Below, piece by piece: positions 2,940-59,659 of a stretch of 64,000 bases of DNA (position 1 is its first letter; every line of letters begins with the position of its first letter). Origin of the DNA: Prostheceraeus crozeri (taxonomy: Eukaryota; Platyhelminthes; Polycladida; Euryleptidae); assembly GCA_907163375.1 (NCBI GenBank), contig CAJQUW010008924.1, positions 620,001 to 684,000 on the forward strand, written 5' to 3'. The translations under genes and the position numbers were made by a program. The notes beneath the pieces are model-generated. The model saw only the letters and a program-made list of their open reading frames with translations, ran no database searches and was not told the origin of the DNA.

Positions 2940-4553
2940 AATTTTGGACTTGCACAGCGGCCACATGTTGACTTGCTACAGGATGTGCACTAAGTCAGTG
3001 CCGCATTTTGACAAGAGGATGTATGACATTCTCGGCGTTTCCTTTGTTCGATGTTCACATTTATTGTGAGTGGGGTATTTGTCGAAGAAGCATCTATTTT
3101 TCTCAAATGTTCAATAAGTTCTAGGAGAAAGCACCGGCGCGTTATTGCTTTCTTCGACACATGAGTGAATAGCACTCCTGCTTTGATGACCGCAATGTCT
3201 ATGATATTTGACCACATAGCCAACGGCCATCTCCTTGATGCTGAACGCGTTGTGTAAGGACGCAGCACTTTATCCACAGAATCGACACCAACTTTATTCT
3301 TGTTATAATTAAAAGCCATTTCAGGCTTTCGCTTTCCTTCATGTTGAGTATCGGGTTTTGAGTGCAGCGTAGAGTATAGACAGACGGTTTTCCTCTCTTT
3401 CGTTTGGTATTTCACAAATGGTGAGTTGTCGTGTAGATAGAAAGAACTTGTGTGTTTCAGCCTTCACAGGATTTGTCACTGTGTCGCATAATTCACGTCG
3501 ATTTTTTCAGATGGTCCCTACAATCGAAGTCTTGTGGTGAAGGGCAAGCTTTGTGGCAAGAGGGAGCGAAGTAAAAAGTTATCGCAACAAATGTTGTAAC
3601 CTTGCCCACGAATTTGTTTGAATCAATTTCAATACGACAGATTCAGCCAACGGAATATCGCCACGCTCATTACGCTCTTGTGCACCAAGATATGGAATTA
3701 TATTGATGACATATTTCGTTTCGACGTTGACCAACAGCCAGAATTTCAAACCAAACTTATCGGGCTTGTTTTGCATGTGTGCTATGAAACCGCATCGTGT
3801 CTGGAGAGATAGTAATTGTTCATCTATAGTCAACGAATAGTTACAAGTGAACTTAAACTAACATTACTCACAAATTTCTGAAACACTTCACGCAATGGAA
3901 GAAATTGTCATTTGAAGGAGATCTCAAGCGTTTAGGTTTGTCATCAAGTCTTAGAAACTTCAAAATTTTGAGGAAACGATCACGTGCCATAGTTCTGCTA
4001 AACATTTGAATTCCGTAAGTAGTGTTCAAGAAAAACGACACAGGATGATTTTTTCCATTACAGACCACGAGCATACATCAGAGACAAGAATTTCTCAATT
4101 TCTGCAGTTAGTAGAAAGTTTTTGTCGCCTCTTCCTTCAGCTTCTTCATTCGTATGCGCAACAATCTGGCGTAGAACAGACTCGTCAAGGTATTGCTTCC
4201 ATGCGTCAAGGTGTCAAGACAGAAGATTGAATGGAGGTTCGGCAACCAGGAGAAGCAGCAAAAATATTATGGGCCGCAGTCCTTCCTAGACAAGAAGCAT
4301 TTGAAGCATTTGATGGAATGGAAGTCCATATAGCACCATGTCGACCAGTTACACTCACAGATCTTCATGATCTTGACGAATTTGAATGATTGACCACATC
4401 GCTCTGGTATTGCCAGAGTCAGAGTCTTCTGATGCGCATTCGTGAACTATATTATGATTCTGCAATTTCTTCGTCGGATAACTCATTATCAGTGTCCCAA
4501 TCATTTAGAATTCTAACTGTATCTGTCACGGTCAATTTTTTTCGTGTTGCCAT
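2940..4553 (-). pseudogene. piggyBac transposase pseudogene (DDE_Tnp_1_7 family)
   Basis: Read on the minus strand from a likely ATG at 4553. The order is: an acidic N-terminus containing ILNDWDTDNELSDEE; a segment with FLSLMYARGL and then MARDRFLKILKFLRLDD (about 4074-3940); MTIDEQLLS and KPDKFGLKFWLL (3833-3700), the piggyBac catalytic core region; and KPEMAFNYNKNKVGVDSVDK...RRWPLAMW (3330-3200). It closes with a Cys-rich C-terminus (CHTSSC...CTSC...TCGRC, about 3010-2950). The order and motifs match piggyBac transposases. The frame is broken by several stops and shifts, for example the TAA at 4452-4454, the TGA-interrupted region near 4080, and a stop inside the Cys-rich tail. It is a dead gene and the only coding content of the element. 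Confidence 0.85.
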
Positions 4554-5112
4554 TTTGTGTCGCGATTGAATATTGCAGTGTTTCTGTAAGTCACAGCTAT
4601 GAATACAAGCTCGTAGATCTACACAGCAGTCAGTCAAATGCTAGTAAATCAATAAATGTATTGCAATCTGAAGTAGGCCTATGATGTGTAAAACGTGGTT
4701 GACTTGATGTATAGACATTTCACAGGCACAGTTTGAGGACAGTGCAAAATTGTAGACATCGCAACTAACTGAATGGTCTGTCTCATCTCTATGAATTCCC
4801 TGAGGAGATATCTATGCTGCCATATTACTTTCCTGAGAATCGACATGTTCCATCACTTAGTGAAAGTAATCACTTTATCCATTCATGAGTCTACCGTGAA
4901 TTGACTAACTGGCACTAACACTTTGGTGTCGAAACCGACACCTCAGCAAAAATAGGGGTTCTTTCCTAAACAGTGGCCCTCTCACTGTCCTAGAGCATCA
5001 ATGTCAAGTATTAGCATCAACTACAAGCTCATACCGAACTATGAAAAGTCAGTTAATCTGTTGCCATTATACGACGAATACATGAAAAATTAGCATTGTA
5101 CAAAATTTTGTT

Positions 5113-5149
5113 AGTGTCGAAAACGACACCTCCGTAATTCTAGTGTTAA
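5113..5149 (-). repeat. piggyBac right terminal inverted repeat plus TTAA
   Basis: The inverted partner of 2667-2698. It contains GTGTCGAAAACGACACC and ends at 5145, directly against TTAA at 5146-5149. Confidence 0.78.
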
Positions 5150-5834
5150 GACATACATCAAAAACAACATCAATAGAAAACACTTAGCTTTCCAGACTGA
5201 TGCTTGAAATAAATGCATCAATACTGTAATCGCCAACTGAATATATCACCTGGCGGAGTTCCATTTCAGATTGACTTACAATTTTATTGCATAAATCTCA
5301 CTGTTTCAAGCCATATGGTATATACATGCATGTCATTCAAATCAGCGAGATCGAGGCGATTCAGCATCACTAAATGTGGCACTTGGAATACATTCAACCT
5401 CAGAAAGCGATCGTCCTGATAAGAGATTTAGTACGTATTTTTGTTTCTCTGTCAAAAAGTTGTCTATATGCGCACATCTGACGGATTTATTTGTAGATCA
5501 TATTCTTTAAAATTAAAGAGCAACAGTGTAATGAAATACTTATTTTAGTCATTTGTATCGCCGCTTACCAAATGTACGTCATGAAATATGCTGACAATGA
5601 AAATGTTCCTGTACCTATTTTTAACGACTGTAATCAAATCAAATAGGTTGATTTTAAAACCAAACCTGTAGAGGAACCTGAAGGAATCAGACAGATCGCA
5701 GCAGAAGGAATCTTTATTTATTGTCAATCAGCAATACTCCATGCTACAGAGTGCTTAGAATATATACACGCTGAAACTCAAATGCATATTCAGATGTCAA
5801 AAGCTCGAAAAATGATTGCGGAACGATACTTTAT
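5150..5834. other. Intergenic, nothing recognised
   Basis: AT-rich sequence between the piggyBac element and the start of the duplicated unit. I see no gene, RNA or clear repeat. Confidence 0.5.
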
Positions 5835-6046
5835 TTATTTAATTAGGTACAATGAAATCAAGCAATTGGAGACAACAGATCGATAAAATTTACTGATATT
5901 TAAACTACATTATTTATACATGCACTAAGATCAATTAGATGACTCAGAGAAGTTGCAAGCTCCTCAGTCTTGCTCCTGATGTATTGCGCAGTGGGTTATC
6001 AATCTTAGTGTCTCAGGAAAACCATGCATAGATGACATGGATTTGT

Positions 6047-6421
6047 TCATTCTCTATGCTGAGGAGGTTCTTCCTCTCCTTGAGCAGCTAGCATGCCCGC
6101 GACACCTATCCCATTTGTTAATGTTCTGCCTCGACTCCTTCTTCCTCCTCTTCGTCCCAATCGAGCACTTTTTCGAAAAATTTTTTTGAAAAATGGTCTC
6201 TTACTTCTTTCATTCTTGACTATTGAGTCCTGAAAGAGACCCGCATATTCTCTTTTCACAATCTCGTGCTTGTTCACATCCAGCTTATTGCTTTCACTTT
6301 TCGCCTTACCATGCAATTCAGTTTTTCTTTCAATATCATTGCTTGGAGCATGGGACATTCCACCGAGAATAAAACTGGCCATGAGAACTCCGAGAATTAT
6401 GAAGAGTACGGAAGTCGGCAT
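6047..6421 (-). CDS. Secreted cationic peptide precursor, copy A (candidate antimicrobial peptide)
   Basis: 124 residues from the ATG at 6421. I chose this ATG because a good splice acceptor (TTTATCTTTCAG) lies three bases upstream, so the 12 upstream in-frame residues are probably intron and 5' UTR. Residues 1-25 form a signal peptide (MPTSVLFIILGVLMASF, then ILGGMSHA). A mixed-charge propiece follows, with dibasic sites: VKR at about residue 58 and RSKR at about 76. After RSKR comes a strongly basic core starting PFFKKIFRKSARLGRR, then GGRRSRGRT, then a Gly/Ala stretch and an acidic tail ending QHRE. Signal peptide, propiece, dibasic cleavage and cationic core are the architecture of invertebrate antimicrobial peptide precursors. 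There are no cysteines. I do not recognise a named family, and the function is inferred. Copies B and C share the first half but not the core. Confidence 0.6.
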   Translation of the reverse strand: MPTSVLFIILGVLMASFILGGMSHAPSNDIERKTELHGKAKSESNKLDVNKHEIVKREYAGLFQDSIVKNERSKRPFFKKIFRKSARLGRRGGRRSRGRTLTNGIGVAGMLAAQGEEEPPQHRE

Positions 6422-6440
6422 TATCTGAAAGATAAATATA
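6422..6440 (-). promoter_or_regulatory. Predicted splice acceptor before the peptide exon
   Basis: On the minus strand a pyrimidine-rich TTTATCTTTCAG ends at 6425, followed by ATA and the ATG. It is conserved in copies B and C. It implies an upstream non-coding exon, which I could not place. Confidence 0.45.
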
Positions 6441-7914
6441 TATTTCATAAGATTCAAACCATCAGAAACTAATTATAATTTCATATCATAAAATAAAGAA
6501 TAGCGGCTTCAGCAGATACCGAGGGCACAGAATTAGATTCATCTGCGCGCTTCGGTTTCCTAGAAAGGAAGGGTTACATGTAACCTTAATATCGAAGTGG
6601 CACATGGCACATCACAGAATTGGACAACTTGCTCCTTCTCGAATGGATAATTCGTGGAAATGGCAAACAATAAGCTGTCAGCAGAGGACGCCAGAGCTAG
6701 TGAGAGATGCGTGCGTGCTGTGATATATCACTTCGCACACACCAAAACACACATCGCTGTCTTGGCTGACATTTGATTCAGTATGCACTATACAGCGAGA
6801 AATGCCGAGAGGATGTGAAAACATCAAATGAACTATTTTTCGTACGCCTGCTACTTTTTTAGTAATGATCGGAAGGGCCAACATTATGGAGAAAACTTGT
6901 GCGCAATGATCTGAATTCTTCGGATCTGAAGGAATTTTGGCTATCGAAGCACATATTAGGTAGCAGGTATTAGGAATTCCTTTTTGCCCACTAAATACGT
7001 TCCTCGATGTGCCGTCTATTTCGTATTAATCACACTTCTAGCAAACCGAAGCAGATAAACAAAATATTTAATTCTGTGTATCACACTATCAAGTATCTTG
7101 ATAGAAGGGAGACTTGGTCTATAATCACTGGAAAAGGGCCTCCAGTGTGCATTTTATGTACCTTTAATCAGTCGCATAGTATTTTTGTGTTTGCATATGA
7201 AATACGTGTGGATTAAAAAAATTTGGATTCAAAAGTAGGATGGGCTCTCTCATCTACCCTTCTTATTGCACGGGTTCCCAAACTCCGGACTGCGGTTCGA
7301 ATCCGGATCGCGGCATTATTTTCACGGACCGACATGATCTCGTGACGAACACGCTTCATATGATCTCCCTGCAACATATTTCGCTATCAATCAAGCTTCA
7401 GTTCTATTTCTATAAAGCACAACCAGTTTCTTGTCTCGCATTAACTCTCTCTAGATGGATCCTTTTATGCAAGAACGTTTGGTAGTCTCACATTTCAGTG
7501 TTTTCCAAATCAAAATGTTGGAAGCTGTAGCTCGATTTTGCCTGATAGAGCGACAAAATTCTGTAGTAATTTCTCACCTCTTTGAACGACGTCGTTTCTT
7601 TCATAGAAAACTTTTGAAATATTATCGGAATCGAAGGTCAGTACTAACTGCAGGTAAAAAGATTAGTAGAAAATAGAGAAGGATATCACTAAATATTTTG
7701 AAATCAGGCGCAGGGGTAGTGAATGAATCAAAGATTAATATTTGTACGTAAAGCTTACATAAAAGTACAAGATTTGAGATTGAATACATAATGATGCCTA
7801 AGAAGAACTGCAAATTGCAACGAGCAAATTGCACGATTTGTTGTAATATCTGAATTAAATATCATATTGCATCGTTTCTTGAAATTTACATCTTTATTAC
7901 ATATAAAATCCGAT

Positions 7915-10482
7915 AAATATATTTATATTATTTATACTCCCTGATGATATTGACCGGTGGTCAATGAAATGCGTATCGGAGTTTGTAATAATTTTTCTAA
8001 TTCATACATTTTTTATATTTTCTATCAATATAATAAACACTTGGCCTATTCCCAGATTTTCTAATTATTTTATAATGCACGGTCAAGGCATTTTCTACAC
8101 TTACGCTAGTTTTATTAGCGTGCTTAAGTCTCTCAAACCCGTTCAAATATAATATAATAAGCTTATTCTAGCAAACAATTGAGTCAGACCTCAGTCATTT
8201 GTAAAAAAAGTGAAACAATGTTTCCACGCGATGCAAATTCAAAAACTGAAGGAAATCTGCATGCATACATTTTCCTAGTCTTATTTGTACGTATGGACAA
8301 GTGTTTTATGTAGACGTCGTCGATTGGCAGTTCTGTGTAGTACAGTCGAATCGCTAAATTTAATGATCAGTGACTTCATGTCATTATAGACCCTCTAATG
8401 AAAAATATATTAATTAATACAAGTACAGTAATTATATGATTGCACAACAACACATGAATTATATTGCCTGATTAATCACATTACAACAATCACTACCGGG
8501 GAAATATTTATTAAGTTATAAGACAAACACTGAACAATAATTCAAACTTAATCACTGATCTGAGCTGCGTGTCATGTCACGACTGCCACGAATTGACGGT
8601 GCTTCATCTCCTCATCCATGAAACATGTCATGTACACATGTCTTGATTATTTTATTGTTATGCATGTCTTGTATTTATGTGCCAATCTAATAACACTGTT
8701 CTGTCTATTTTTATGGTAAATTTGAAAATAAACAAATTCCTATCATTATGTTATCCTATTATTTTGATGAGCCATTGACATGCTTTGATGTTTTGAATAT
8801 AAGGCGAATGGTCTTAATTTGAATGCAACGTGATTTACGTTGATCACAACAACCTTTAATCTGACTTGAGTTTTAAAATAGAATACTGCAGGTTTCTGTC
8901 TGAATGCAGCACATTTGAATTGAAATTCAAAAGGCATTGTTACTTAACCGACAAATGGAATTTTCTAGGTCTAGATATTGCATTATGTGGAAAAATGCAT
9001 GTGACGAAATGACAAAAAATTTCATAACACCTTATCCTAATGCAGTCGAATATCGCTTAATTGTCGGCTAAGTAAAACATTTCAGGAAAAAGACTACCTT
9101 TGTATACCGTAGGAAGCATCAACATACTATTATTTGTAATTTGAAGTGACGATAAAGGAAATGCATTACCTCTATGATGCGTTGGTTTTCTCGAAATGTA
9201 TCAACTAAACCAAAAATAGTAACTGAATGATGATGCAGACAGATCACAAAAGGCAACTTTTTCAATATCAATTTGAATAATCGAAGTGTGTTGCTATAGC
9301 TAGAATCGATTTTAATTTTGAATACTTATATTGATGAACATAGAAATGGATTTATATGCATTATTCATTTCTATCATATCATAGAGCGCGATATGAATGA
9401 AAAATTCAATGCTGCTGTGGTGATAGCAGTTATGCAATACATGTGCAATATCTTACCCGCCAGGAGTAAATAAATGGTTAGAATGTAGCCATGATGCGAC
9501 TGAAGAGATAAGATATTAGACCCCTTCGCTTGTTCTAGACCCATATGGACAACATGCTCTGATATGCAACAAAGGAGGAGATGTGGTGACGCGGCACAAC
9601 AGCATACGAAACGTTCTTTACGATTCCTGTAAACGTGCTTTACTGCGACCCCAACTCGAGAAGGGGAATGGACTTGGTCAGCTTAATCCGGAAACGCGTC
9701 CAGCTGACATTTGCATACCTGATTGGTCTCTCGGCAAGCCAGCGGCCGTGGATGTGACTGTTACGCACCCGCTCAACCACACGAATATAACAGGAGCGAG
9801 CCTAACAGTCCAACATGTGACAGCCACAGCTGAGGACAGGAAGCGGAGCAATAACGGAAAAAATGCCGCGAGTTGGGATGGATATGTCTCCCATTTGCTC
9901 TAACAGCATATGGTGCCCTTGGAGACGAAGCCACCCATTTTATCACTCGCCTTAGTCGCAGACTGTCGACACAAACAGGAGCGGCATTCAGAGATGTTGT
10001 GACATTGTCTATATGTGGAAGAGTCTCCATCTCACTTGTTCGTGCAAGTGCGCAAGGTATCATCAAGCGAAATGCTGCCTCTGTTGGCCGATCAGAGATC
10101 GAGCAATCGGTCAGAACTTTTCCTTGACGGCTTTCTTTTTCGCTTTACTTTTTTCTTTTCATGATTTTTTATAGTTTTTTGTCACCATGGACTCCTAGAT
10201 ATCTTCTGGACAGGAAACTATCACAATTTATAATAACAAAATTATATGGCATAGAAATCAACAATACCATAGAAGCTGTTGTCCACTTACATGGTTGCAG
10301 GTGAGTAATACAAACATGGACGGTAATTAGCTTAAAAATTCACAAATTCAGAATTCAAAGTTCAATGTTGTGTCATCAGGCGGTTTTAAGTGGTCAGCAT
10401 TTTCGGGTTTATATTCAAATCTGAACAGAAAGCGGTAGCTCTGAACGGCGAAATGCTTGCTACCATGTTTGTCGCGAAGAGG
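7915..10482 (+). repeat. Segment repeated inverted at 56288-59507
   Basis: Runs from an ACTCCCTGATGATATTGACCG junction to GCGAAGAGGCC. The inverted copy is near-identical except for a 631-bp hAT MITE inserted at 57288. 8150-9500 has no gene. The last 180 bases (about 10301-10482) also occur at 28507-28690, downstream of a different retroelement tail. A diverged, GC-richer relative of 8480-9385 lies at about 19360-20420. Confidence 0.8.
9520..10127 (+). pseudogene. C-terminal fragment of retroelement polyprotein with restriction-like endonuclease
   Basis: Begins with LDPYGQHALICNKGG, then RHNSIR (9595 on), RPADICIPDW (9694-9723) and AVDVTV (about 9745-9762). It continues in another frame with GWICLPFALTAYGALG and ends SLVRASAQGIIKRNAA. 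This order (Cys/His knuckle, RHN, then a PD-x(n)-D-x-T/K core) parallels the endonuclease domain C-terminal to the reverse transcriptase in R2/CRE/NeSL-type non-LTR elements. One frameshift lies in the A-run near 9860. The reverse transcriptase is missing upstream, where a stop occurs at about 9517. A near-identical inverted copy with an extra stop is at 56648-57255. Confidence 0.65.
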
Positions 10483-12194
10483 CCATGCATAGATGACATG
10501 GATTTGTTCATTCTCTATGCTGACGAGGTGCTCCCTTTCCTAGAATAGGTACCAGGAAATCCTCAAATAATCTTTTCACAATCTCGTGCTTGCTCACATC
10601 CAGCTTATTGCTTTCACTTTTCGCCTTACCATGCAATTCAGTTTTTCTTTCAATATCATTGCTTGGAGCATGGGACTTTCCACCGAGAATAAAACTGGCC
10701 ATGAGAACTCCGAGAATTATGAAGAGTACGGAAGTCGGCATTATCTGAAAGATGAATATATATTTCATAAGATTCAACCCATCAGAAACTAATTATAATT
10801 TCATATCATAAAATAAAGAATAGCGGCTTCAGCAGATACCGAGGGCACAGAATTAGATTCATCTGCGCGCTTCGGTTTCCTAGAAAGGAAGAATTGTATG
10901 TAACCTTAATATCGAAATGGCACATCACAGAATTGGACAACTTGCTCCTTCTCGAATGGATAATTCGTGTATTGCTTGCTATTGGAAATGGCAAACAATA
11001 AGCTGTCAGCAGAGGACACCAGAGCTAGCGAGAGATGCGTGCGTGCTGTGATATCACTTCGCACACCAAAACACACATCGCTGTCTTGGCTGACATTCGA
11101 TTCAGTGTATGCACTATGCAGTAAGGAATGGTGAGAAGACGATGGTGAAAGCATCAAATGAACTATTTTTCGTACGCCTGCTACTTTTTTTCATAGTGAT
11201 CGGAAGGGCCAACATTATGGAGAAAACTTGTGGGCAATGATCTGAATTCTTCGGATATCTGGCTATCGAAGCACTTTGCTGGAACTCACATTCATCCGCA
11301 AGCGACGCACGACTTTTTTCCTATCTCTGTAAGGTATTAGGAATTCCTTTTTGCCCACTAAATGCGTTCCTCGATGTGCCGTCTATTTCGTATTAATCAC
11401 ACTTCTAGGAAACCGAAGCAGATATACAAAATATTTAATTCTGTGTATCACACTATCAAGTATCTTGATAGAAAGGAGACTTGGTCTATAATCACTGGAA
11501 AAGGGCCTCCAGTGTGCATTTTATGTACCTTTAATCAGTCGCATAGTATTTTTGTGTTTGCATATGAAATACTTGTGGATTAAAAAAATTTGGATTCAAA
11601 AGTAGGATGGGCTCTCTCATCTACCCTTCTTATTGCACGGGTTCCCAAACTCCGGACTGCGGTTCGAATCCGGATCGCGGCATTATTTTCACGGACCGAC
11701 ATGATCTCGTGACGAACACGCTTCATATGATCTCCCTGCAACATATTTCGCTATCAATCAAGCTTCAGTTCTATTTCTATAAAGCACAACCAGTTTCTTG
11801 TCTCGCATTAACTCTTTCTAGATGGATCCTTTTATGCAAGAACATTTGGTAGACTCACATTTCAGTGTTTTCCTTGGAAGCTGTAGCTCAATTTTGCCTG
11901 ATAGAGTGACAAAATTCTGTTGTAATTTCTCACCTCTTTGAACGACGTCGTTTCTTTCATAGAAAACTTTTGAAATATTATCGGAATCGAAGGTCAGTAC
12001 TAACTGCAGGTAAAAAGATTAGTAGAAAAGAGAGAAGGATATCACTAAATATTTTGAAATCAGGCGCAGGGGTAGTGAATGAATCAAAGATTAATATTTG
12101 TACGTAAAGCTTACATAAAAGTACAAGATTTGAGATTGAATACATAATGATGCCTAAGAAGAACTTCAAATTGCAACGAGCAAATTGCACGATT
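10483..12194 (-). repeat. Duplicated peptide-gene unit, copy B (5' part)
   Basis: A direct repeat of copy A joined abruptly to the preceding segment at GAGGCC|ATGCATAGATGAC. It continues at 16761-17475 after the copia insertion, so the unit was present before copia entered. Confidence 0.85.
10508..10741 (-). CDS. Secreted peptide precursor, copy B, with a different core
   Basis: 77 residues from the ATG equivalent to copy A. The signal peptide and propiece differ from copy A at only a few positions (GGK for GGM, VSK for VNK). After the first dibasic site (EIVKR) the sequence changes to LFEDFLVPILGKGAP and then rejoins the shared terminus QHRE and stop. LFEDFLVPIL followed by GK would be a classical amidation signal after dibasic or monobasic processing, giving a short amphipathic peptide. 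This is inference. Alternatively the copy is a deletion product that happens to stay open. The shared stop region argues that the frame has been kept. Confidence 0.5.
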   Translation of the reverse strand: MPTSVLFIILGVLMASFILGGKSHAPSNDIERKTELHGKAKSESNKLDVSKHEIVKRLFEDFLVPILGKGAPRQHRE

Positions 12195-12500
12195 TGTTGA
12201 AATTTGCGCTTTAAACTTAATTAACCTTTGTCTCGCCCTACTCATTTGCGTTACAGTAGATTTATGATTACGTGCTGTCAATTTGTTCCCAGAAGACTAT
12301 TTTTATCACGTCATGAACATTTGCCCTGTATCATTGGTAACGAGGTCATGTTTCCCGCTCTCTATATTAAGTGCGTGTGCCGTTCGATGTGATGTTACAC
12401 TCAGCTTTCTTTCTCCTTGATGCACGTGAATAAAAGTTCGTCTCACGATGACTTTTGTCTTGTCAATCACTGCGTTAATAATCTGTTAATAATTTCAACA
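12195..12500 (+). repeat. copia 5' LTR
   Basis: 306 bp, TG...CA ends. TATATTA at 12363-12369 is a plausible TATA box and AATAAA at 12429-12434 a polyadenylation signal, so transcription would start and end within the LTR. Confidence 0.95.
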
Positions 12501-12514
12501 GGTTATGGGCCCAG
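12501..12514 (+). other. Primer binding site for a half tRNA-iMet
   Basis: GGTTATGGGCCCAG directly follows the LTR. It is complementary to CTGGGCCCATAACC, the anticodon stem-loop of initiator tRNA-Met (anticodon CAU), not to its 3' end. Drosophila copia is known to prime from such a cleaved internal fragment. Confidence 0.85.
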
Positions 12515-12631
12515 AACGGCAAATTGACTTTTAAGGTGCTCAACGGAACTATACGCCCACATTACTCGACGTGATACGACAGTTATTGAGTATTCGCTGT
12601 GATAGTGATCTTCGGCTGAGTGTGTTTCAAG

Positions 12632-13705
12632 ATGGCGGAGTCAAAAGTAGCCATCATACCTCTAAACGGTGTGAACTACAACACTTGGAAAATCCAATGT
12701 CGAATGGCGCTCGTGAAGGAAGTAGTATGGTCAATCGTTAATGGTGACGAAATCTCACCTCCTTCTTCAGACGGAGAAAAATACGCGAAGTTTGTCAAAA
12801 GAAGCGATCGAGCCTTAGCGACAATAGTGCTATCTATCGAGACTTCTTTGTTATACCTTATCGGCGATCCGACGGATCCTACGGTGGTATGGAATATTTT
12901 GCAAAATCAGTTTCAAAAGAAAACTTGGGCAAATCGACGCGAACTTCGACGTAAGCTCCACTCATTACATTTGAGTGAAGGTCAGTCTGTGCAAGAGCAT
13001 ATCAAAGCTCTGAGTGAAATATTCGACGGATTGGCGGCAATGGACGACCCATTAACCGATGAAGATCGGGCTATCTATCTTCTGGCCAGTTTACCGGACT
13101 CTTACAATATGTTGGTGACAGCTCATGAAACAAATAGTGATGTTCCTTCTGTGGAGACTATTACTGAACGTTTACTCAACGAGGAGCGACGGATTAAAGA
13201 GCGGTCTGAAGCGGTAAAGGTCTCAGAAAGGGTGTTAGCAACGACGGAACGATACTCAAGAAAGAAGAAGACAGTTACGTGTTACTTTTGTAAGAAAACT
13301 GGACACATCAAACGCCACTGTCGTGAATTCATTAAAGTGCGGAATTCGTCGAGGGATTCAAAAGTAAAAGTGAGTGGGCGAGACAACTTAGATTGCAGTT
13401 TATTTACTGATCATATGCTAACTATGAACAGTGAGGTGCGTGAGAGCTGTTGGTTGATTGATTCAGGTGCTACCAGTCACATGTGTTCTGATGTGGCATG
13501 CTTTGTTGATATCAAATATTTTGATCTACCGAATGAAATTGCTCTAGGAGACAAACGTATGAGAGTAAAAGCGGTAGGATGTGGTACTGTAGTACTTGAT
13601 ATGATATCACCTGATGGTAGGACTTATGTATCTTCTTTGCATGATACGTTGTATGTACCTGATTTATCTTTCAATCTTTTGTGTCTAAAGCCATTGAGAA
13701 AGTAG
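12632..13705 (+). CDS. copia gag and start of protease
   Basis: From the ATG at 12632, 357 residues. The N-terminal copia-type Gag region (residues about 5-200) contains LNGVNYNTWKIQCRMAL. A CCHC zinc knuckle, CYFCKKTGHIKRHC, lies at about 13279-13320; it binds RNA during particle assembly. The aspartic protease active site is WLIDSGATSHM at about 13450. The frame ends at TAG 13703-13705, just after the usual LSFNLL motif. The rest of the polyprotein continues in the -1 frame from about 13681. The homologous family normally has one continuous frame, so this is a frameshift in this copy. Confidence 0.92.
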   Translation: MAESKVAIIPLNGVNYNTWKIQCRMALVKEVVWSIVNGDEISPPSSDGEKYAKFVKRSDRALATIVLSIETSLLYLIGDPTDPTVVWNILQNQFQKKTWANRRELRRKLHSLHLSEGQSVQEHIKALSEIFDGLAAMDDPLTDEDRAIYLLASLPDSYNMLVTAHETNSDVPSVETITERLLNEERRIKERSEAVKVSERVLATTERYSRKKKTVTCYFCKKTGHIKRHCREFIKVRNSSRDSKVKVSGRDNLDCSLFTDHMLTMNSEVRESCWLIDSGATSHMCSDVACFVDIKYFDLPNEIALGDKRMRVKAVGCGTVVLDMISPDGRTYVSSLHDTLYVPDLSFNLLCLKPLRK

Positions 13706-16431
13706 ACGTTATATTTAAAGGCGATAAGTGTCTTATTCAAGAGAGGGATGGAAGAGTTATTGCTCATGGAAATAAGTTGGGACGCCTGTACAAGCTAGAA
13801 TGTCGACCTAGGAGTCAGATGTGCATGTCTAGTTCTGAGATACTTTGGCATCAACGTTTTATTCATCTTAGTCAAAATAATCTGAAGGTTTTTGCTAACT
13901 CAGACTTAGTTAGTGATTTTGACTATGACCCATCCAAAGGAATAGGAATTTGTGAGCCCTGTATTGCTGGAAAACAATGTCGGGAACGATTCCCTACTGT
14001 CCAAGCTATGAGAGCGGCTGAGCCTTTAGGACTAGTTCATAGTGACGTCTGTGGCAAAATTAATACACCGTCTTTGGGAAAAGGAGAATACTTTCTGACT
14101 TTTATTGATGATAAGACGAGGTATACATGGATTTATATTATCAAGAGAAAGAGCCAGGTATTTGAATGCTTCCTTGAGTGGAAATCATCTGTTGAAAAGT
14201 CATCAGGTTTTAAGGTCAAGGCTATACGTTCAGATAACGGGGGAGAATATATGTCCAGAGAATTTCAAAGTTATCTGAAGGATGAGGGTATTTCTCATCA
14301 GTTGACTGTTCCGAAAACGCCGGAACAAAATGGAGTCGCAGAGAGGATGAATAGAACTCTGATTGAAGCTGTGTGGTCTATGCTCATTAACGCTGATTTA
14401 CAGCAAGAATTTTGGGTCGAAGAGATCTCAACAGCCGTTTATGTTAGAAACAGATGTCCGACATCAGCTGTCCCAGGAAAAACACCGTATGAGGCATGGA
14501 CGGGTCATAAACCCTCGGTAGGACATTTGAAAGTTTTTGGATGTGTTGCGTACGTTCATATCCCAAAAGATGAGAGGCAAAAGTTAGACTCTAAATCGCG
14601 AAAATGCATCTTTCTCGGTTATGGAACAGACACGAAAGGTTATCGCATTTTTGATAGTCAAACTTCAAAGGTAACTATAAATCGAGATGTAAGGTTTGAC
14701 GAAAAATCTTTTATCAAATTGAACGAGCCAAAACAGAAGGAGCTATCTCCTCTCATCACGTTTGATACGCAAATTATCGAGGATGAAAACAATGAGTCAG
14801 TTGAAGAAAGCGCAACGGTCAGGCGGTCAAGTAGAAATATAAGGCCTCCAAATTTTTTTATGTATGAAAATTTTGCTAACACAGTTGAAAGTATCGCAAC
14901 GGAACCTACTTCAGCGACCGAAGCTTTGAATAGTCATGAGAAGGATAACTGGATACAAGCCATGAGATCTGAGTACGACTCGCTGCAAACAAATAATGTT
15001 TGGGACCTGGTGGAATTGCCAGAAGGCAAACAAGCGGTCGGAAGTAAATGGGTTTTTAAGAGAAAACTGGATGAAGATGGTTTTGTATCTAGATATAAAG
15101 CACGTTTGGTTGCTCAGGGTTACTCTCAGAAATTCGGAGTAGATTACAAAGAGGTATTTAGTCCTGTAGCGAGATTTGAATCAATCAGGATTTTGCTTGC
15201 GTATGCATTAAAGAATGGTCTGAGACTACATCAAATTGATGTTACTACGGCATTCTTGAACGGAGTACTTACAGAGGAAGTTTTCATGAAACAACCCGCA
15301 TGTTTTGAGGTTGAAGGGAAGGAACATTTAGTGTGCAAACTAAATCGTAGCATTTATGGTTTAAAGCAGTCTTCACGCTGCTGGAATGACATTTTGCATT
15401 CACATCTATTAACCATGAATTTTATCGCAACAGATGCGGATCCCTGTATTTATTTGTCAAAAGCAAAGGAAATGCTTTTTATTGCTGTGTATGTCGATGA
15501 CATGATTATTATTGGAAAAAATCAGCATGATATTGAATGGGTTAAGCAATCTTTTCTTAACAAATTTGAGGTCAAGGACCTGCATGAATTGCATGACTTC
15601 CTTGGTATGAAAATTGTGAAAGGTGATGATACGTTATGGTTAGGACAACCTGCATACACTAAACATGTACTGAGAAAATTCAAAATGGACGATGCAAATC
15701 CGGTAACAACTCCAGTGGAACCAGGTCTGAAACTTAGAAAGGCAGCAGTTGACGAATCCGTTTTTGATAAGAAACTGTATCAGTCTGCTGTAGGAAGCTT
15801 ACTCTTTTTAGCTGTATGTACACGACCTGATATTGCTTTTGCAGTGAATAATGTTGCGAAGTTTTGTTCTCAACCAACAAATTTACACTGGATGGCTGTT
15901 AAGAGAATTTTCCGTTACCTTGTCGGAACATGTGATTATGGCTTATGTTATCGGAAAGGTGGATCTATTGTTGGTTATTCCGATGCGGACTGGGGAGGCG
16001 ATCAGGATGATAGGAGATCGACCTCTGGTTATTTATTCAAGGATTGTGATGCTGCGATAAGTTGGTGTAGTCGAAAGCAAAGTTGTGTTGCGTTGTCTAC
16101 TGCTGAAGCAGAATATATGGCTTTATCGTTAGCGTCACAAGAAGCAGTTTGGATAAAACAAATCTATGGCAATTTGGGTTACAGGGAGGAACCATTGACT
16201 ATTTTTGAGGACAATAAAGCTGCTATAAGTATTTCAAAAAATTCCCAGTTTCACGGTAGAACGAAGCACATAGAGATAAGATACCATTTTGTTAGAGAAC
16301 ATGTTATCGAGAATAATATTTCAGTTGTTCATTGTTCGAGTAATGATATGATTGCTGATGGGCTTACTAAGGGTCTACCTCGTGATCAGTTTGAACGTTT
16401 GAGATCGAGTATGGGTGTGAGGCAGTTGTGA
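13681..16431 (+). CDS. copia integrase, reverse transcriptase and RNase H
   Basis: An open frame of about 916 codons with no proper ATG at its start; it is the continuation of the polyprotein after the frameshift. Integrase: zinc HHCC (LWHQRFIHLS...CEPCIAGK, 13845-13970), then the DDE triad HSDVCG (14038), SDNGGEY (14230) and EQNGVAE (14323). Reverse transcriptase: RYKARLVAQGYSQ (15091), QIDVTTAFLNG (15234) and the catalytic YVDDM (15488). RNase H: YSDADWGG (15976), STAEAEYMALS (16099), EDNKAAISI (16207) and DGLTKGLP (16357). All key residues are present. The protein copies element RNA into DNA and inserts it. Stop TGA at 16429-16431. Confidence 0.95.
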   Translation: MSKAIEKVDVIFKGDKCLIQERDGRVIAHGNKLGRLYKLECRPRSQMCMSSSEILWHQRFIHLSQNNLKVFANSDLVSDFDYDPSKGIGICEPCIAGKQCRERFPTVQAMRAAEPLGLVHSDVCGKINTPSLGKGEYFLTFIDDKTRYTWIYIIKRKSQVFECFLEWKSSVEKSSGFKVKAIRSDNGGEYMSREFQSYLKDEGISHQLTVPKTPEQNGVAERMNRTLIEAVWSMLINADLQQEFWVEEISTAVYVRNRCPTSAVPGKTPYEAWTGHKPSVGHLKVFGCVAYVHIPKDERQKLDSKSRKCIFLGYGTDTKGYRIFDSQTSKVTINRDVRFDEKSFIKLNEPKQKELSPLITFDTQIIEDENNESVEESATVRRSSRNIRPPNFFMYENFANTVESIATEPTSATEALNSHEKDNWIQAMRSEYDSLQTNNVWDLVELPEGKQAVGSKWVFKRKLDEDGFVSRYKARLVAQGYSQKFGVDYKEVFSPVARFESIRILLAYALKNGLRLHQIDVTTAFLNGVLTEEVFMKQPACFEVEGKEHLVCKLNRSIYGLKQSSRCWNDILHSHLLTMNFIATDADPCIYLSKAKEMLFIAVYVDDMIIIGKNQHDIEWVKQSFLNKFEVKDLHELHDFLGMKIVKGDDTLWLGQPAYTKHVLRKFKMDDANPVTTPVEPGLKLRKAAVDESVFDKKLYQSAVGSLLFLAVCTRPDIAFAVNNVAKFCSQPTNLHWMAVKRIFRYLVGTCDYGLCYRKGGSIVGYSDADWGGDQDDRRSTSGYLFKDCDAAISWCSRKQSCVALSTAEAEYMALSLASQEAVWIKQIYGNLGYREEPLTIFEDNKAAISISKNSQFHGRTKHIEIRYHFVREHVIENNISVVHCSSNDMIADGLTKGLPRDQFERLRSSMGVRQL

Positions 16432-16440
16432 TATTTTTTT

Positions 16441-16454
16441 AAAGCGAGAAGGAG
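16441..16454 (+). other. Polypurine tract
   Basis: AAAGCGAGAAGGAG, all purine but one base, abuts the 3' LTR and would prime plus-strand synthesis. Confidence 0.8.
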
Positions 16455-16760
16455 TGTTGAAATTTGCGCTTTAAACTTAATTAACCTTTGTCTCGCCCTA
16501 CTCATTTGTGTTACAGTAGATTTATGATTACGTGCTGTCAATTTGTTCCCAGAAGACTATTTTTATCACGTCACGAAGATTTGCCCTGTATCATTGGTAA
16601 CGAGGTCATGTTTCCCGCTCTCTATATTAAGTGCGTGTGCCGTTCGATGTGATGTTACACTCAGCTTTCTTTCTCCTTGATGCACGTGAATAAAAGTTCG
16701 TCTCACGATGACTTTTGTCTTGTCAATCACTGCGTTAATAATCTGTTAATAATTTCAACA
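16455..16760 (+). repeat. copia 3' LTR
   Basis: 306 bp, 303 identical to the 5' LTR. The differences are one C/T near 16509 and two close together near 16575-16579. AATAAA at 16689-16694. Confidence 0.95.
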
Positions 16761-28506: not shown

Positions 28507-29736
28507 TAATACAAACATGGACGGTAATTAGCTTTAAAATTCACAAATTCAGAATTCAAAGTTCAATGTTGTGTCATCAGGCGGTTGAGTGGTCAGCATT
28601 TTCGGGTTTATATTCAAATCTGAACAGAAAGCGGTAGCTCTGAATGGCGAAATGCTTGCTACCATGTTTGTCGCGAAGAGGCCATAACGGCAAGAGGAGG
28701 AGATGAGGAGTCGCAATGCAGTTATTGTGCACCCAAACTTAAGCGCTTTTCTCCATATACACGTCTACGCACCTAGGTCGGTGACCTTGGTCGTTGATTT
28801 TCTTGGATAATTGCTTATTGCCTGAAATAAAGAAAAATTGCTACTTATGGTTATTTATATCAATGAAATCATAAACGTAACTGATAATAAGGCAATCATA
28901 AAGCTATGTTATAATGAATAATGAACTTAGTAATTACTGATTGATACCTTAATAATGATCAAAATGATCAAAATTCCTCTATTTAAATTTTTGATCCAAT
29001 AAAAACTAAATATAGACCTGGTTCACGCTATATCTAAGGAGATGCGCACAAGATAGGAAGACAGTGACCAGTGAATAATAGTTCACTGCGCTTTACTTAC
29101 TTATTATATTCCGGGTATTACACCGGCCTACAAGCGTGTATCTGACATTACCGTACATGTACTACGAATTGAATTCACTGTAGGCCTACTAATTTTGCAT
29201 AAATATCTCGAGAATACATGTATCAAAATGTTAATTCTTCATAGGTTTTTGTGCTGAATAGGAAAATACAGATATATAACTAACTTGATCCAAACATTGC
29301 CAGTTGAAGTACAATAATTCAGATGTATGTACTCACAAAAATCATACACCCATATAGGCAATGTCAAATGAATTATAGCTAACATCTTACAGAAGTACAA
29401 CTGTCGCAACACTGCAGTCTCTGTGCTGCAGATTGATCTTAGGTCTTACCTCTCATGTCAATAATTCATGCCACAGTTGCCGGCGCACGCTTTGACGCGA
29501 ATAGATATGGCAGTGGCATTGTGCACCGGTTGATGCTGAAGCCGCAAATAAATCACTAAATTACTCTTCAAAATTGTTTCATCGAACAGGAAGTCAAACA
29601 AGCCTTGGTTGTCATTCATCTAGCATAAAAGGAAATACAATAAAATTTGAAATTCAAAATTATCCGACTTCTATGTGTTAACCGGCCCTGCTAACCTGCC
29701 CTGTGAGCATAGAGATAATCTGACATAGTTTAAAGC

Positions 29737-29863
29737 GGATAAACGTGGATTTATTAAGATTTGCCGATATCTCGGTCAATCATTAGAGTGAACTGCCCTT
29801 TGAGCAGTTAGCTAGATAATTGTCCTCGTTATTTCAGCAAATCTAAAAAATCCACGTTTATCC
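29737..29863. mobile_element. 127-bp palindromic MITE
   Basis: Ends GGATAAACGTGGATTT and AAATCCACGTTTATCC are perfect inverted repeats, and the pairing continues imperfectly across most of the element. The same 127-bp element is in the partner arm at 55032-55158. No clear target duplication. Confidence 0.7.
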
Positions 29864-31288
29864 ATTACATAATTGCAATGACAGATAGATATGTTTGCTT
29901 AGACTACAGTGTGGAACTACCTAGCAACAATGTAATTTTGTAACAAGTACTGACAGTTACGGCTTCAAGCCGACAAATGCAACGGATTGAACAACCTGCA
30001 GAGCTGCCCCAGTAGACAAATGGAGCGGAACGCCTTCAATCGACAAATGTAGGGCTTCTACAAATGTCGGCTTTGCCTACTTATCTTGCGGCCCATAAAG
30101 TGTTGAAGGAGACGCGACCTTTTGTTGACATCACCGACGTCACACGAATCCGTTGGCGGCTTTTGTTTTATTTTTGGAAAAGTCAGCAATACTTCCTTTG
30201 ACGGAAGTGACTCACGCACAAATACAGAGCATTTATCGGTCTACATCACATGCTACAACCAAAACAATTGCCCTTGAAATGTACATACATGCATAATCAA
30301 TATGCTTTCGACTTATTTTCAGCAGCCACTGAAAGATGCGTGTCCTGAAAATTAAATGTATTAAAATTTTGCATACTGATGGAAGGTTATTTTTTATTAT
30401 CCATTTTGAACAGTACTTTTCTTGAAGATCTGAATCTTTGTGTGATAGCATTCAACGGATTGGCTCAGTTTTCAAAATGAGTGCGTGATTTGGAAATTCA
30501 TATGCTTTGTAAATACAACTTATTAAAATTTCAAATAGCAATGGCACATTTAAGTAGTCATTTTTGTGTCTTTTTCTGAATTACTTGAATTCTTTGGGCA
30601 TCAACAAGTATTCATTCCTCTTTATAATCACATTTGAGGTCAATTGGAGATACAGAACATCATCTCCCAGGACCACATATGGTTACTTTTGGGTGAGATG
30701 AGAGTCTTCCTCATTTCGCAAACGCATATTTTAGTTGTATTCTTTGGACAAATCAAGCTGATCAATCGCTGTTGCACTCATAATCAATATCTTTGTACAT
30801 TAAGCCAATTTGGAATCGTAAAAACAATCACTAGAAGATGCATAGCCAGCACTTGTTAATTAAAATTAAGCAACTAAATGTGAAAAATTTCAAAAATTGA
30901 TCGGCAGAATAGAATAGAATAGAATATAAAAGGCGCATACATGTATTTTGCAAATAAAAATCTAGACATAAACGAGACAAAATTTACAAAATGATATCAA
31001 TATCAATTGAATGTTCAATCAAAATACGTACGTCGGTTGAATAAAATTGGTGATTTTAACATTTCAATTGTTGTTTGCAGTAGGAAGATGAGCCAGTTAG
31101 ATCAAATAGATACAATTACCACCATTAAGGCTGGATTATAGTCTTTGAGTTTTTTCCGGAAGTTTGAGAGAAAAACGCAGGCTTGAAGCATTCACCGCAA
31201 GTTGGCACAGTTTCTGCCTCGCAACTGCGGTAAACTTAAACGCAAGATCGTGCGGGTTTCAATTTCATATTTAGAGTTGACGCTTGCC

Positions 31289-32453
31289 ATGAGATATCAC
31301 TTCATGATGCAGGAGTCTTCCGAAGAAGTCGTCAACGACATGGTGCCCTTGATTTCGATAACTCACTTGCTCAAAAATCGTAGGCGACGGTGGAGTGTAA
31401 GACCTATAAATCGATCGAGAAAGGAAAATGGTGAAGGACGTCTAGTGGAGGCGATCAGACTGTATGACAAGGAGACTCATTTAAAATATTTCCGCATGCG
31501 CCGTAAAAGTGTTGATCAGTTGTTCCACGTCGTTGGTCCCCATATAACTCATCAATGAAATCATTTGTTGCCTATCGGCCATTACCTTGAGATACTTATC
31601 CACGGGTGACTCATTTCAGACTATTACCATAAGTTTTCGTTGCGGTGCCACTACATTGAGCCTGATTGTCTACAAAACCTGTGAACTAATTTGGAAACTT
31701 CTCCGTCAACAGTTCCTACCTGAAACTAGCAGGCCTAGTGACCTCTGAATGAATAATGCCAGAAATTTCGAGACCTTGTGGAGCTTCCCAAATTTTGTCG
31801 GCTCGATTGCCGGATAGCATATATCTCTAAAGGCCCCACGAAACAGTGGCAGTGAGTATTTCAATTATAAACATGTTGCATCAATTGTTTTGCTAGCATC
31901 CGTTGACGCAGACTATTGTTTAAAGATAGTTGACATGGAGCGTTCGGGAGAGAAAGTGATGGCGGAGTTTTGAGTAGATCGACGTTTGGAAGAGACATCG
32001 AACTGAATCAATTACAAATTCCTAGATCAGGTAACAATTTGCCTGGGACAAGTATCACTTCACCATTTGTATCTCCATTGAAGGAGAATATTATGAAACC
32101 GCACTCAAGAAGCACAAATCTGACGTATGAACAGAAAGCATTCAATATCAATTGAGCCGTGCAAGACGTGTCATTGAAAACGCCTTCGGGATTATTGTCC
32201 TCTACATGGCGAGTGTTTCGCAGGTCCATGGAAGCTCTCCCGTCGAATGCTATTCTGGTTACTAAAGCAGCTGTTGTTTTGCACAATTTCCTTCGAAAAA
32301 TGGACTCTGATGGTAGCAATGCCCGAAATACAATGTACATGCCTCCATGCAGCGTTGACCACGATGATCATGAAGGCAATAGTCTACCGGATGACTGGCG
32401 ATTTGAAGAGGAAAATTGTTTTCGAAACATTGTTCATCAAGAAAGTAACAACT
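31289..32453 (+). pseudogene. Harbinger transposase pseudogene
   Basis: From the ATG at 31289. The N-terminal part has RRRWSVRPINRSRKENGEG and LKYFRMRRKSVDQLFHVVGP (31380-31540), then a SFRCGATTLS stretch, GSIAG-stop-H at about 31800 where the family has G-x-I-D-G-x-H (first catalytic Asp lost), and SGSEYFNYKHVASIVLLASV. Later come LPGTSITSPFVSP, SRARRVIENAFGI in a shifted frame (32157-32195), and WRVFRRSMEALP...VVLHNFLRKM. Many frameshifts and stops; not functional. The same disruptions appear in copy 2, so it was dead before the duplication. Confidence 0.85.
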
Positions 32454-32566
32454 AAACTGATTCAATCTCTTCTACGCGTGAACAATTTATGAAACATTTT
32501 GAAGAAAGTAACAACTAAACTGATTCAATCGCTTCTACGCGTGAACAATTTATGAAACATTTTGTT
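32441..32566 (+). repeat. 63-bp tandem duplication
   Basis: GAAAGTAACAACTAAACTGA...CATTTT is repeated twice in a row at the end of the transposase. It is present in both Harbinger copies, so it predates the inverted duplication. Confidence 0.8.
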
Positions 32567-32599
32567 TCAATTTCTTCATCAAAATTTCTACTGTTGTTC

Positions 32600-32919
32600 T
32601 TTCTCTAACGAAGTCATCTAAAACGTTCATGGACTCAAAGTATTTCCACTTTGGTTTTGGATTTCTGCCAGGATTACCGTGCCGTGTGGATAATTCTAGT
32701 TTCTTCTTCCGATGGATGTCACGGAGATATCGCTACATATCTTTGCATTATTACTTGTCGCCTCATTTGTTTAGCAATCTCAGACCAGGAGTTGTTTTGT
32801 TGATGATATGGTCCAGAGATCAGAATAATTTCGTACCATCTTTTAATGAGCCTCTCCTCATCAATAAAACTTTCGATCATTACGGGATGTTTGCAGCTGT
32901 TAGTTCCTTCCATCACCTC
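32600..32919 (-). pseudogene. MADF-domain protein of the Harbinger element
   Basis: On the minus strand from about 32919: MIESFIDEERLI, NNSWSEIAKQM, then in another frame RYLRDIHRKKKLELSTRHG and PKWKYFESMNVLDDFV. This is the MADF layout (Trp-containing helix, R-Y-L-R-D, then W-K-Y-F...FL). In PIF/Harbinger elements such a protein brings the transposase to DNA. One frameshift near 32725 breaks it. Confidence 0.7.
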
Positions 32920-33531
32920 ACAATCGGCGTTAGTTTACAAAATGCAATTGATTATCTATCAATTGGCTACAATAGCAACGATTCATGCCAGTTTCCCTAA
33001 TCGTAATCGATGATATTACCTGAGATGTCGACACTGCCAAACATCCAATCTCCATCCTGCGGCTTGTGGAAAAGTAGACAGCACCTCAGCCTGCGTTTCC
33101 ATCGTGCGGCACAAATTCAGACCGTCTCAGATATCATCAATGTCTGCGCTTCCGCATGGACCTGCGTTTCGCCGCAGCTTCTTGCGTTTCAAACCTGCGT
33201 TTCTCTACCGCAAGATAGCGAGATGAAAAACGCAGGAACTATAATTCAGCCTTTAGAAAGTTCACGCACTGAATATGTTGCACGTGTTAAGATGGTCCGC
33301 TTCAATATCGGATGCGGCATTAAGTGGCTACACCGTCACTGGCTCGAACCGACCTATAATAAAATGAGGACCAACAGGTCGAAACTTGTCTCATGGTGGT
33401 TGCATCTGTTGTGATTTGATAAATCCTTCAGATTACTTCATCCTTCATATCGTTAATTCTTGCATCAAGTCCTTCTCGAGGAGTAGGTACCTCATTTATA
33501 AGTTTGGTTGTTCTTCGCCTCGCCAAATACC

Positions 33532-34187
33532 TCAAAAAATGGAGATGTGATATTGATGGGGTTCGTGCAATCATAGCTCAAACTTTATTTGTTCCAAAGT
33601 GAGTTCGTTATGTCTTCGATAATCTCCACTGCCGTCCAGTAAATGACATCGAAGACTTGATTTCCCCGTGTCTTTACTCCTACTTCCACAACCCCTTCAA
33701 ATTCATGGTCTATTGCCCACAAATGGCAACAGAAGAGTCAATGCATATTTTAGCTTCAATAATGTTTGCATCTAATTGCATCAATTTGCTTTATCTTTTC
33801 AATTCTCGACCTGGTTAGCACGATGCATGAGCTACATTTTAGAGTACATATTAAATGTTATGAGGGGTAAATATTTATGAAAGGCACCTTGAATGACACT
33901 CGATCTGTCATCATCATCCTAAATGATAGTCTCTACAGTGATTGATGATTAATCTGTACAATCTATTGATGAGCAGCTACATTTGATCTGCATATTTCTA
34001 CACTTGATCACATACATTTCTGTGCTTCCACATTTCATACTGAATATGTCTACATTTGATCTGCATACTTCTACATTAATGTCGGAAGACCTATATAATG
34101 CTTTTATTGACTAGCTATGGAAGATAGAAACTTCGCCTACGGCTCAGTTTATATCCCGCCATAGCTAGTCAATAAAAAGCAGCATAA
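33532..34187. other. Spacer between repeat arms, nothing recognised
   Basis: AT-rich; short phrases such as ACATTTGATCTGCAT recur around 33970-34070. A short inverted repeat (ATAGCTAGTCAATAAA) brackets 34108-34175. No gene. Confidence 0.4.
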
Positions 34188-47670: not shown

Positions 47671-48752
47671 AACTTTTATCAATGTCATTGACCGTTGTGT
47701 CTGAGTTTTACTCTCCGTTGAACTATATTAGAAGCGTTGATGTTCATTTTCCAGCAATACATTCATATGAACATAATGCGTTCTTACATATTATGAATTG
47801 AAGGGAAATAGGGACATTGAAGCATTTACATTTTACAACACAGTTCATTTTTCGTAACGACCGGGATGTAACGACCAGGATGTTGTAATTTCAAAAGTTT
47901 CAAAATAACTACTTTCCGGAAACGTAACAAAACTTGTGTCAAACACAATGTGTTTTTTCAGGAACACTACATAAAAATATTACGATGTGACATTCAGAAT
48001 TTAGGCATTAATCAAAGGTTACCAAATAAAAGAAAAATAGGCCTAGTCAAATTTCTGGCTGTAACGACCAGGATGGCATCTACAAATGTTTCATCCTAAC
48101 AACAAGAATAGGCGGTGCCCGAAAATTCTTGGTATGATAGCCTACCATGAGCTATTAATGTACAAGAAGTTTCGGCTTCTTGAGTAATGTAGTTTCGTTT
48201 TGCCAGTTCGAAAACAATCGAAATGTAACGACCGGGATTATATGGAATCGACCATATTGTGTAGATAGAATTTCTAAAATCATTGACATCAATACTTGTC
48301 TTTCAAAACCATTTTTTAACTTGGACAAGACGAATTGTCGCATAGAGCATATCCGAATTGAAATGAATATCAAGTATCGCTTGCCATACAACTTTGAATG
48401 ATACAACTCTTTAGAGCAATAGTTTAAATATCATATGAGCTATACTGAATATGAATTTGGATAAGGTGTAGAAAAATACATAAAAGCAACGAAAAGACTA
48501 CATTTTTTATATCAGCGTCAAAAATATTAATGTTTATACAAAGTAACTATCTAAACACAATTCTGTGATATCTGAATTACTGTATTTGTCTACATGAGCA
48601 TTCAGATATTATTCCATCCTTAATTCAACTAAATCCATTGGTTTAATGCCATAAAAGTACAGTTCATGTCGTCACAATGTTCATAAAGCAAATTTCACAA
48701 TAAAAAGTAAGTCTGTGCAAACTTTGTGTCGTCGACTGTACCCATGATGGAA
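47671..48752. other. 3' region of the transposase locus with motif copies
   Basis: No gene; contains four copies of TGTAACGACC(G/A)GGAT. The spacer of the large inverted duplication ends at 48752. Confidence 0.5.
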
Positions 48753-49363: not shown

Positions 49364-49680
49364 GAGGTGATGGAAGGAACTAACAGCTGCAAACATCCCG
49401 TAATGATCGAAAGTTTTATTGATGAGGAGAGGCTCATTAAAAGATGGTACGAAATTATTCTGATCTCTGGACCATATCATCAACAAAACAACTCCTGGTC
49501 TGAGATTGCTAAACAAATGAGGCGACAAGTAATAATGCAAAGATATGTAGCGATATCTCCGTGACATCCATCGGAAGAAGAAACTAGAATTATCCACACG
49601 GCACGGTAATCCTGGCGGAAATCCAAAACCAAAGTGGAAATACTTTGAGTCCATGAGCTTTTTAGATGACTTCGTTAGAG
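49364..49680 (+). pseudogene. MADF-domain protein of Harbinger, copy 2
   Basis: Identical in layout to the copy 1 gene (MIESFIDEERLI, NNSWSEIAKQM) and broken by the same frameshift, on the strand opposite the transposase. Confidence 0.68.
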
Positions 49681-59654: not shown

Positions 59655-59659
59655 TAGCA

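Follow-up and report, generated by a model that had tools for sequence, protein, structure and literature searches.

In planarians, processing of precursors of less than 200 amino acids by convertases and amidation is established, and two Planarin prohormone genes are near neighbours in opposite orientations (PMC2953531). Antimicrobial peptides of anurans and mussels are documented to combine a conserved prepro region with a hypervariable mature region (PMC6245896, PMC5577615), and a review of planarian innate immunity, in its available part, describes no planarian antimicrobial peptide gene (PMC7958881). Flatworms are known to trans-splice spliced leaders, and the reported leaders of parasitic flatworms end in ATG (PMC8629364, PMC12582326).

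Here, we describe a peptide precursor-like gene, copy A, in a stretch of 64,000 nucleotides of the polyclad Prostheceraeus crozeri (hereafter the window). We tentatively explain it, with confidence somewhat short of even, as a lineage-restricted flatworm gene for a secreted prepropeptide, the product most likely acting on membranes in host defence (or, as a secreted agent, in offence).

Anatomy of copy A

The features of copy A, of its two further copies and of the surrounding DNA are collected in Table 1. The protein is free of Cys. Its signal was judged by hydropathy, the -3/-1 rule and inspection rather than by a predictor, and an alternative upstream in-frame ATG is present at 6448. Beyond the two propieces, the core opens with PFFKKIFRKSARLGRR from position 6196, and the residues that follow the 13-mer read GRR GGRRSRGRTLTNGIGVAGMLAAQGEEEPPQHRE. 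The ends of the segments (signal, two propieces, core, and tail) are predicted processing points, and GRR is a standard amidation and dibasic end. The acceptor-like stretch ends in TTTCAG, the last base of which is 6425. It is a candidate acceptor, either of a cis intron in the 5'UTR or of a spliced leader, as judged from its sequence. Two GTRAG[TA] donor-type sites lie in the 1.5 kb upstream of copy A. If a leader that ends in ATG were joined at 6425, its ATG would be in frame with copy A (ATG-ATA-ATG), which has a one-in-three chance of occurring. On the other side of the gene, AATAAA signals are found about 210 nt 3' of the stop codon.

Table 1. Features of the locus, in window coordinates
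Feature	Position	Strand	Basis or remark
Copy A, CDS of the whole 124-aa prepropeptide, ATG to stop, single coding exon	6421-6047	-	ORF translation
Copy A, splice-acceptor-like TTTATCTTTCAG	6425..6436	-	3 nt 5' of ATG; shared by A, B and C, the last with one T-to-C change
Copy A, signal-peptide-like segment MPTSVLFIILGVLMASFILGGMSHA	6347..6421	-	predicted boundary, -3/-1 rule
Copy A, first propiece PSNDIERKTELHGKAKSESNKLDVNKHEIVKR, ends in VKR (6259-6251), net charge +2	6251..6346	-	sequence
Copy A, second propiece EYAGLFQDSIVKNERSKR, ends in furin-type RSKR (SKR 6205-6197)	6197..6250	-	sequence
Copy A, predicted mature cationic 13-mer PFFKKIFRKSARL	6158..6196	-	sequence; A-B divergence focused here
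Copy A, GRR, putative amidation and dibasic cleavage-type signal	6149..6157	-	sequence
Copy A, Gly/Arg stretch and C-terminal tail, last residues EEEPPQHRE	6050..6148	-	sequence
Polyadenylation-type signals AATAAATAAA downstream of A	5830..5839	-	offsets 211 and 215 from 6050
Copy B, inverted; same signal and propiece	63438..63737	+	alignment
Copy C, tandem; signal and propiece up to VKR	10741-10508	-	alignment
High-copy interspersed repeat, about 550 nt, starts about 100 nt upstream of copy A, duplicated with the gene	6526..7078		genome search
Left arm, part with A	4091..10486		three blocks pairing with 56289-65756
Left arm, inner part	28762..33532		blocks pairing with 48752-56253
Right arm with B	48752..64000		goes past the window to about 73.5 kb
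copia LTR retrotransposon, long gag and pol frames, LTRs 99% identical	12195..16760	+	inside the copy C tandem unit

A sequence-only reading of this DNA had described a signal-like N-terminus, VKR and RSKR sites, a Cys-free core, a Gly/Arg stretch and an upstream acceptor, all of which we found at this place. It had also likened the architecture to that of linear antimicrobial peptide precursors. The precursor architecture is supported; the propiece, at net +2, is not acidic. The second segment has a charge of +1 and all residues from GRR onward sum to +3. In many antimicrobial precursors the charges balance each other; here they do not.

The length of the copy A ORF is by itself unremarkable and is no evidence for a gene: the window has 11 ORFs of at least 124 aa starting with ATG, while 20 first-order Markov copies average 1.25. 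A Pfam scan of ten long window frames gave four transposon families, one GST and five without a match. We then combined a hydrophobic N-terminus, RX[KR]R and a charge of at least +4 over the next 13 residues. This set, chosen after seeing the ORF and thus post hoc, retrieved one window ORF (copy A, read from the ATG at 6448) and none in 150 Markov windows. These results bear on a reading that we hold to be unlikely, in which copy A is a non-functional, accidental or decaying frame in a segmental duplication, and the changes in its core come from gene conversion or from hotspot mutation in a stretch rich in A/T tracts. That the window has a number of ORFs this long speaks for such a frame, as does the interspersed repeat that makes up the upstream DNA, whereas the ordered precursor motifs of copy A speak against it.

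The peptides of the three copies were judged by composition and hydrophobic moment, with moments ranked against 5000 permutations. The 13-mer of copy A has a charge of +5 and a moment of 0.77, which 110 of the 5000 permutations reach. The 13-mer that copy B encodes in its own frame (TFLKKILEMLFHL...) has a charge of +1 and a moment of 0.56 (63/5000), falling to 0.26 (991/5000) when the acidic tail is included (24 residues). The peptide of copy C, LFEDFLVPIL, has a charge of -2 and a moment of 0.40 (495/5000).

Copies and the inverted duplication

Copy A is part of an inverted duplication that we mapped using flanks beyond the window (20 kb to its left, and 18 kb of additional sequence to its right). 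Numbered as in the window, the left arm of the duplication runs from about -1.6 to 33.5 kb and its right arm from 48.8 to 73.5 kb, with a spacer of about 15 kb, and a displaced extra block at -11.2 to -8.3 kb pairs with 69.8-72.8 kb. The identity of the blocks ranges from 92 to 99%. It is 99.1% in the innermost block, 93-97% at 28.8-31.2 kb, 99.3% at 9.5-10.5 kb, 97-98% around copy A and 92-95% farther out. An additional 18 kb or so in the left arm (10486-28497) carries copy C and is broken by the copia element.

Copy B has a 1-nt indel in the core and a 3-nt indel after it; its frame is shifted in the core and meets an early stop, and as it stands the copy reads ...SKR followed by TFLKKILEMLFHLDEKEEGVEAEH. 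Copy C has lost the core and RSKR in frame, VKR running directly into LFEDFLVPILGKGAPRQHRE. It keeps the frame of A and the final QHRE, reading KR-LFEDFLVPIL-GK-GAPRQHRE, and has neither AATAAA nor ATTAAA within roughly 500 nt 3' of its stop. Since the core is frame-shifted in B and missing in C, the described peptide is present in A only, and two of the three copies may be decaying. Protein searches of the assembly of this species (2.05 Gb in 14165 contigs) brought up no copies beyond these: the whole protein of copy A gave four matches at E <=0.001, namely A, B (in two parts) and C, and the signal with the propiece gave three at E <=10, again A, B and C (4 of the 4 first-look candidates were scored).

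The local tandem and inverted duplication proposed in the sequence-only reading is thus supported, with C as the tandem and B as the inverted copy, all in this region. Its idea of a peptide family being multiplied is right as to the three copies and wrong in so far as B and C do not encode the cationic core of A. The "duplicating unit" that it had seen is a segmental duplication of tens of kb with transposons, to which the tandem copy C is added, rather than a peptide-specific mobile unit.

The interspersed repeat upstream of copy A had 5296 first-look candidates genome-wide, 40 of which were scored. Of the matches listed (42), the window copies account for 3 and other places in the genome for 39, all of the latter staying within 6526-7078 or a few bases beyond. 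A 115-aa ORF at 6681-7025 is covered by this repeat.

The arms could also have arisen in the assembly. In such a case A and B would be two alleles in an inverted haplotig misjoin and the frame shift of B would be an allele or a homopolymer-length error, which is compatible with the other readings. An identity of 92-99% is within the heterozygosity of some outbred invertebrates, and the protein searches of the assembly gave only these copies. The extra 18 kb of the left arm, with copy C and the copia element, and the spacer between the arms point in the other direction, and we regard a misjoin as improbable.

Several other elements were observed in the window. The innermost duplicated blocks (31229-33532 and 48752-51054) have open frames that look Harbinger-like by eye, two of which were scanned with Pfam and had no match. 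The spacer has a single-exon GST-like ORF (36517-37164), whose closest solved relatives include sigma-type enzymes. A transposase-like ORF with a TNP-like RNase H domain, presumably of the THAP/P-element type, is found at 40802-41695 (minus strand). Frames at 35106-36110 (minus strand) resemble by eye a Penelope-type retroelement with a GIY-YIG end, the frame at 35106-35588 having no Pfam match. The right arm contains a palindrome of about 315 nt (59339-59653), self-inverted and 95% identical to its own reverse complement.

Distribution of the differences between copies

Copies A and B differ by 39 substitutions in 2055 aligned columns, on which three aligner settings agree, and the loci are otherwise about 98% identical. 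Nine of these substitutions fall in the 39 nt of the core and all nine are non-synonymous in the frame of A. Nine is also the maximum in any 42 columns, a value reached by 1 of 20000 random placements. With the core chosen after seeing it, the contrast between its 9 substitutions in 36 counted nt and the rest has a Fisher p of about 8e-9. Counted by codon in the frame of A, there are 0 non-synonymous (N) and 0 synonymous (S) changes from the signal to VKR, 2 N and 1 S from VKR to SKR, 9 N and 0 S in the core, and 2 N and 0 S in the tail. The total of 13 N and 1 S, on 283 and 80 sites, does not reject neutrality (p about 0.15), nor does the 9:0 of the core (about 0.11), and the change in the core of B may be one single event. 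Frame-neutral substitution between copies had been named beforehand as a point against a peptide gene; the codon counts are compatible with it, and the placement of the substitutions is non-uniform.

The signal and first propiece show 0 differences in 171 nt between A and B, against 25/1684 in non-coding DNA, which is not significant (p 0.16). Between A and C, 2 of the 171 nt differ, both changing an amino acid (one, M to K, lies in the signal-like segment), against 27/492 upstream (p 0.016), a yardstick that may be inflated because the upstream DNA is largely interspersed repeat. A cluster of the same density, with 9 substitutions in 42 columns, appears in the comparison of C with B near 11118, where the sequence is non-coding and, by its offset, inside the interspersed repeat. 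Hence, clustering can arise without selection, e.g., by gene conversion. The remaining arm-to-arm blocks of the window that are longer than 400 nt peak at 6 substitutions per 42 columns.

For the reading of copy A as a non-functional frame, these data are two-sided. The cluster in repeat DNA and the non-significant N/S ratio are in its favor, together with the frame shift of B and the truncation of C, which lacks a polyadenylation-type signal. The prepro region is more conserved than the upstream DNA between A and C, though with the yardstick just mentioned, and the lower peak of the other blocks also argues against it.

Proposed maturation and function

If copy A encodes a secreted peptide, as we tentatively favor, the acceptor that ends 3 nt 5' of the ATG would serve in the processing of its transcript, and the signal peptide would let the product enter the secretory pathway. 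Cleavage by a proprotein convertase would then follow at RSKR, and probably at VKR too, after which trimming of GRR and amidation would leave a cationic amphipathic helix of 13 residues, PFFKKIFRKSARL-amide, which may be membrane-active. An inverted duplication of tens of kb with a nested tandem duplication would have produced the three copies. Their prepro regions would have stayed nearly fixed while the mature part was altered, possibly under selection, through clustered substitutions between A and B, the frame change in B and the in-frame loss in C.

Convertase release could equally yield an amidated 13-mer (...ARL-amide) acting on a receptor, i.e., a neuropeptide or peptide hormone. Signalling peptides are normally the conserved part of their precursor. 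Here, the predicted peptide is the part that diverges most between copies at otherwise nearly identical loci, which argues against a hormone, as does the lack of a family match in Pfam. The GRR at the end of the copy A 13-mer and the opposite orientation of two close genes, as in Planarin, fit a hormone. So do the published planarian prohormone criteria (signal sequence, flanking basic sites and less than 200 aa; PMC2953531), all three of which copy A shows, the signal by inspection. This last point makes the hormone a serious rival, although we find it unlikely. What makes us prefer host defence or offence is that no part changes more than the predicted mature peptide, as in the anuran and mussel peptides.

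If expressed, copy A would give a flatworm a lineage-restricted secreted peptide, possibly antimicrobial. The locus would also show the evolution of a hypervariable mature part behind a conserved prepro region in copies that are about 98% identical and that allow substitution, frame change and deletion to be distinguished.

Mitochondrial genes of the assembly

The mitochondrial genes of this genome lie in a 100.7-kb contig (C6227), which has the genome's one COX1 match, with 8 TGA inside. At what we take to be conserved COX1 positions, TGA stands at Trp, AGA at Ser, ATA at Ile and one of two AAA at conserved Asn, as in code 9. This COX1 has an apparent long in-frame N-terminal extension. ND6 (below the Pfam cut-off, 26.6 vs 33.2 bits), ND5 and COX3 follow in this order on the same strand; the nad6-nad5-cox3 block is described as more likely an apomorphy of Trepaxonemata (PMC5446695), and together with code 9 it makes a trepaxonematan flatworm the probable source. 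An echinoderm source, considered since echinoderms share code 9, was set aside on account of this block. Against an arthropod source there is a weak sign, namely that Chitin_bind_4 had no match in the genome, with the control silent as well; the GST-like ORF of the window did not place the host. Three long COX3 frames, with partial ones, are arranged in tandem with a period of about 1.06 kb and up to 98% identity.

Searches for relatives

Pfam searches of copy A with E up to 10 gave only DUF4834 (0.085, below the cut-off), those of B two sub-cut-off matches to unrelated families, and those of C none. NCBIfam had no credible match. Among PDB sequences there was one chance-level match (E 1.2) in one search and none in another, and six peptide strings had no match in open-licence PubMed Central text. 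Viral contigs yielded 14 stretches and the genome contigs of a prokaryote collection 317, none of them confirmed; this says little, since animal relatives are not expected in such collections. The kind of peptide is known and its family appears to be unnamed within the collections searched (Pfam, NCBIfam, PDB sequences, open-licence paper text, and viral and prokaryote contigs), which agrees with the earlier failure to recognise a named family.

Comparison with known systems

The peptide prohormones of planarians (Schmidtea), the Planarin family among them, are probably from the same phylum and share with copy A a signal sequence, basic cleavage sites, amidated peptides (predicted here) and a length below 200 aa (PMC2953531). 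Set against Planarin by description only, this locus differs in having its greatest divergence in the predicted mature peptide. The Hydra arminins are likewise genus-restricted, clustered and fast-evolving secreted peptides. They were compared with copy A by description only, Pfam giving no arminin match, and most Hydra peptides have a strong bipartite charge distribution (PMC10945409).

Centrocins and styelins, to which the sequence-only reading had pointed, have a cationic chain behind a propiece, and the centrocin heavy chain has an FKK-type start, as here. The comparison holds as an analogy. Centrocins are Cys-linked dimers of a heavy and a light chain cut from one precursor (PMC4805251), whereas the protein of A has no Cys, and the KHK motif described in the mature peptide of styelins and botryllin (PMC9966394) is absent from A, B and C.

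The mussel myticalins and modiocalins resemble copy A in being linear, Cys-free and cationic with a hypervariable mature region, a Gly/Arg amidation end and clustered genes with pseudogenes (PMC5577615, PMC12294457). They have an intron right before the ATG; copy A shows an acceptor-like CAG 3 nt before its ATG, a candidate for such an intron. In the mussel peptides the mature part comes directly after the signal, the C-terminus is extended by an anionic stretch and a second intron interrupts the coding sequence, and the myticalin signal consensus is unlike the signal of copy A by eye. The myticalin layout (signal-mature-KR-anionic extension) is not that of A, whose core comes after two propiece segments and whose residues from GRR onward are net positive.

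Copies A, B and C had no Pfam match to the curated anuran prepro profile, which we take to be FSAP_sig_propep. The amidation ends of anuran skin antimicrobial peptides are GK or GR, and the anuran-type KR-peptide-GK layout is seen in copy C. The precursors of these peptides have in common with the locus a conserved signal and propiece, KR and a hypervariable mature region, and differ in their negatively charged propeptide (PMC6245896). It is conceivable, if quite improbable, that the locus is a flatworm-only defence or offence locus with a frozen signal-propeptide cassette that was copied within a large inverted repeat, and behind which the mature peptide was replaced by clustered substitutions that change amino acids, by a frame change giving another amphipathic peptide (TFLKKILEMLFHL...) and by in-frame deletion (LFEDFLVPIL-GK after KR). 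If true, a diversification like that of frog skin peptides would have arisen separately in Platyhelminthes.
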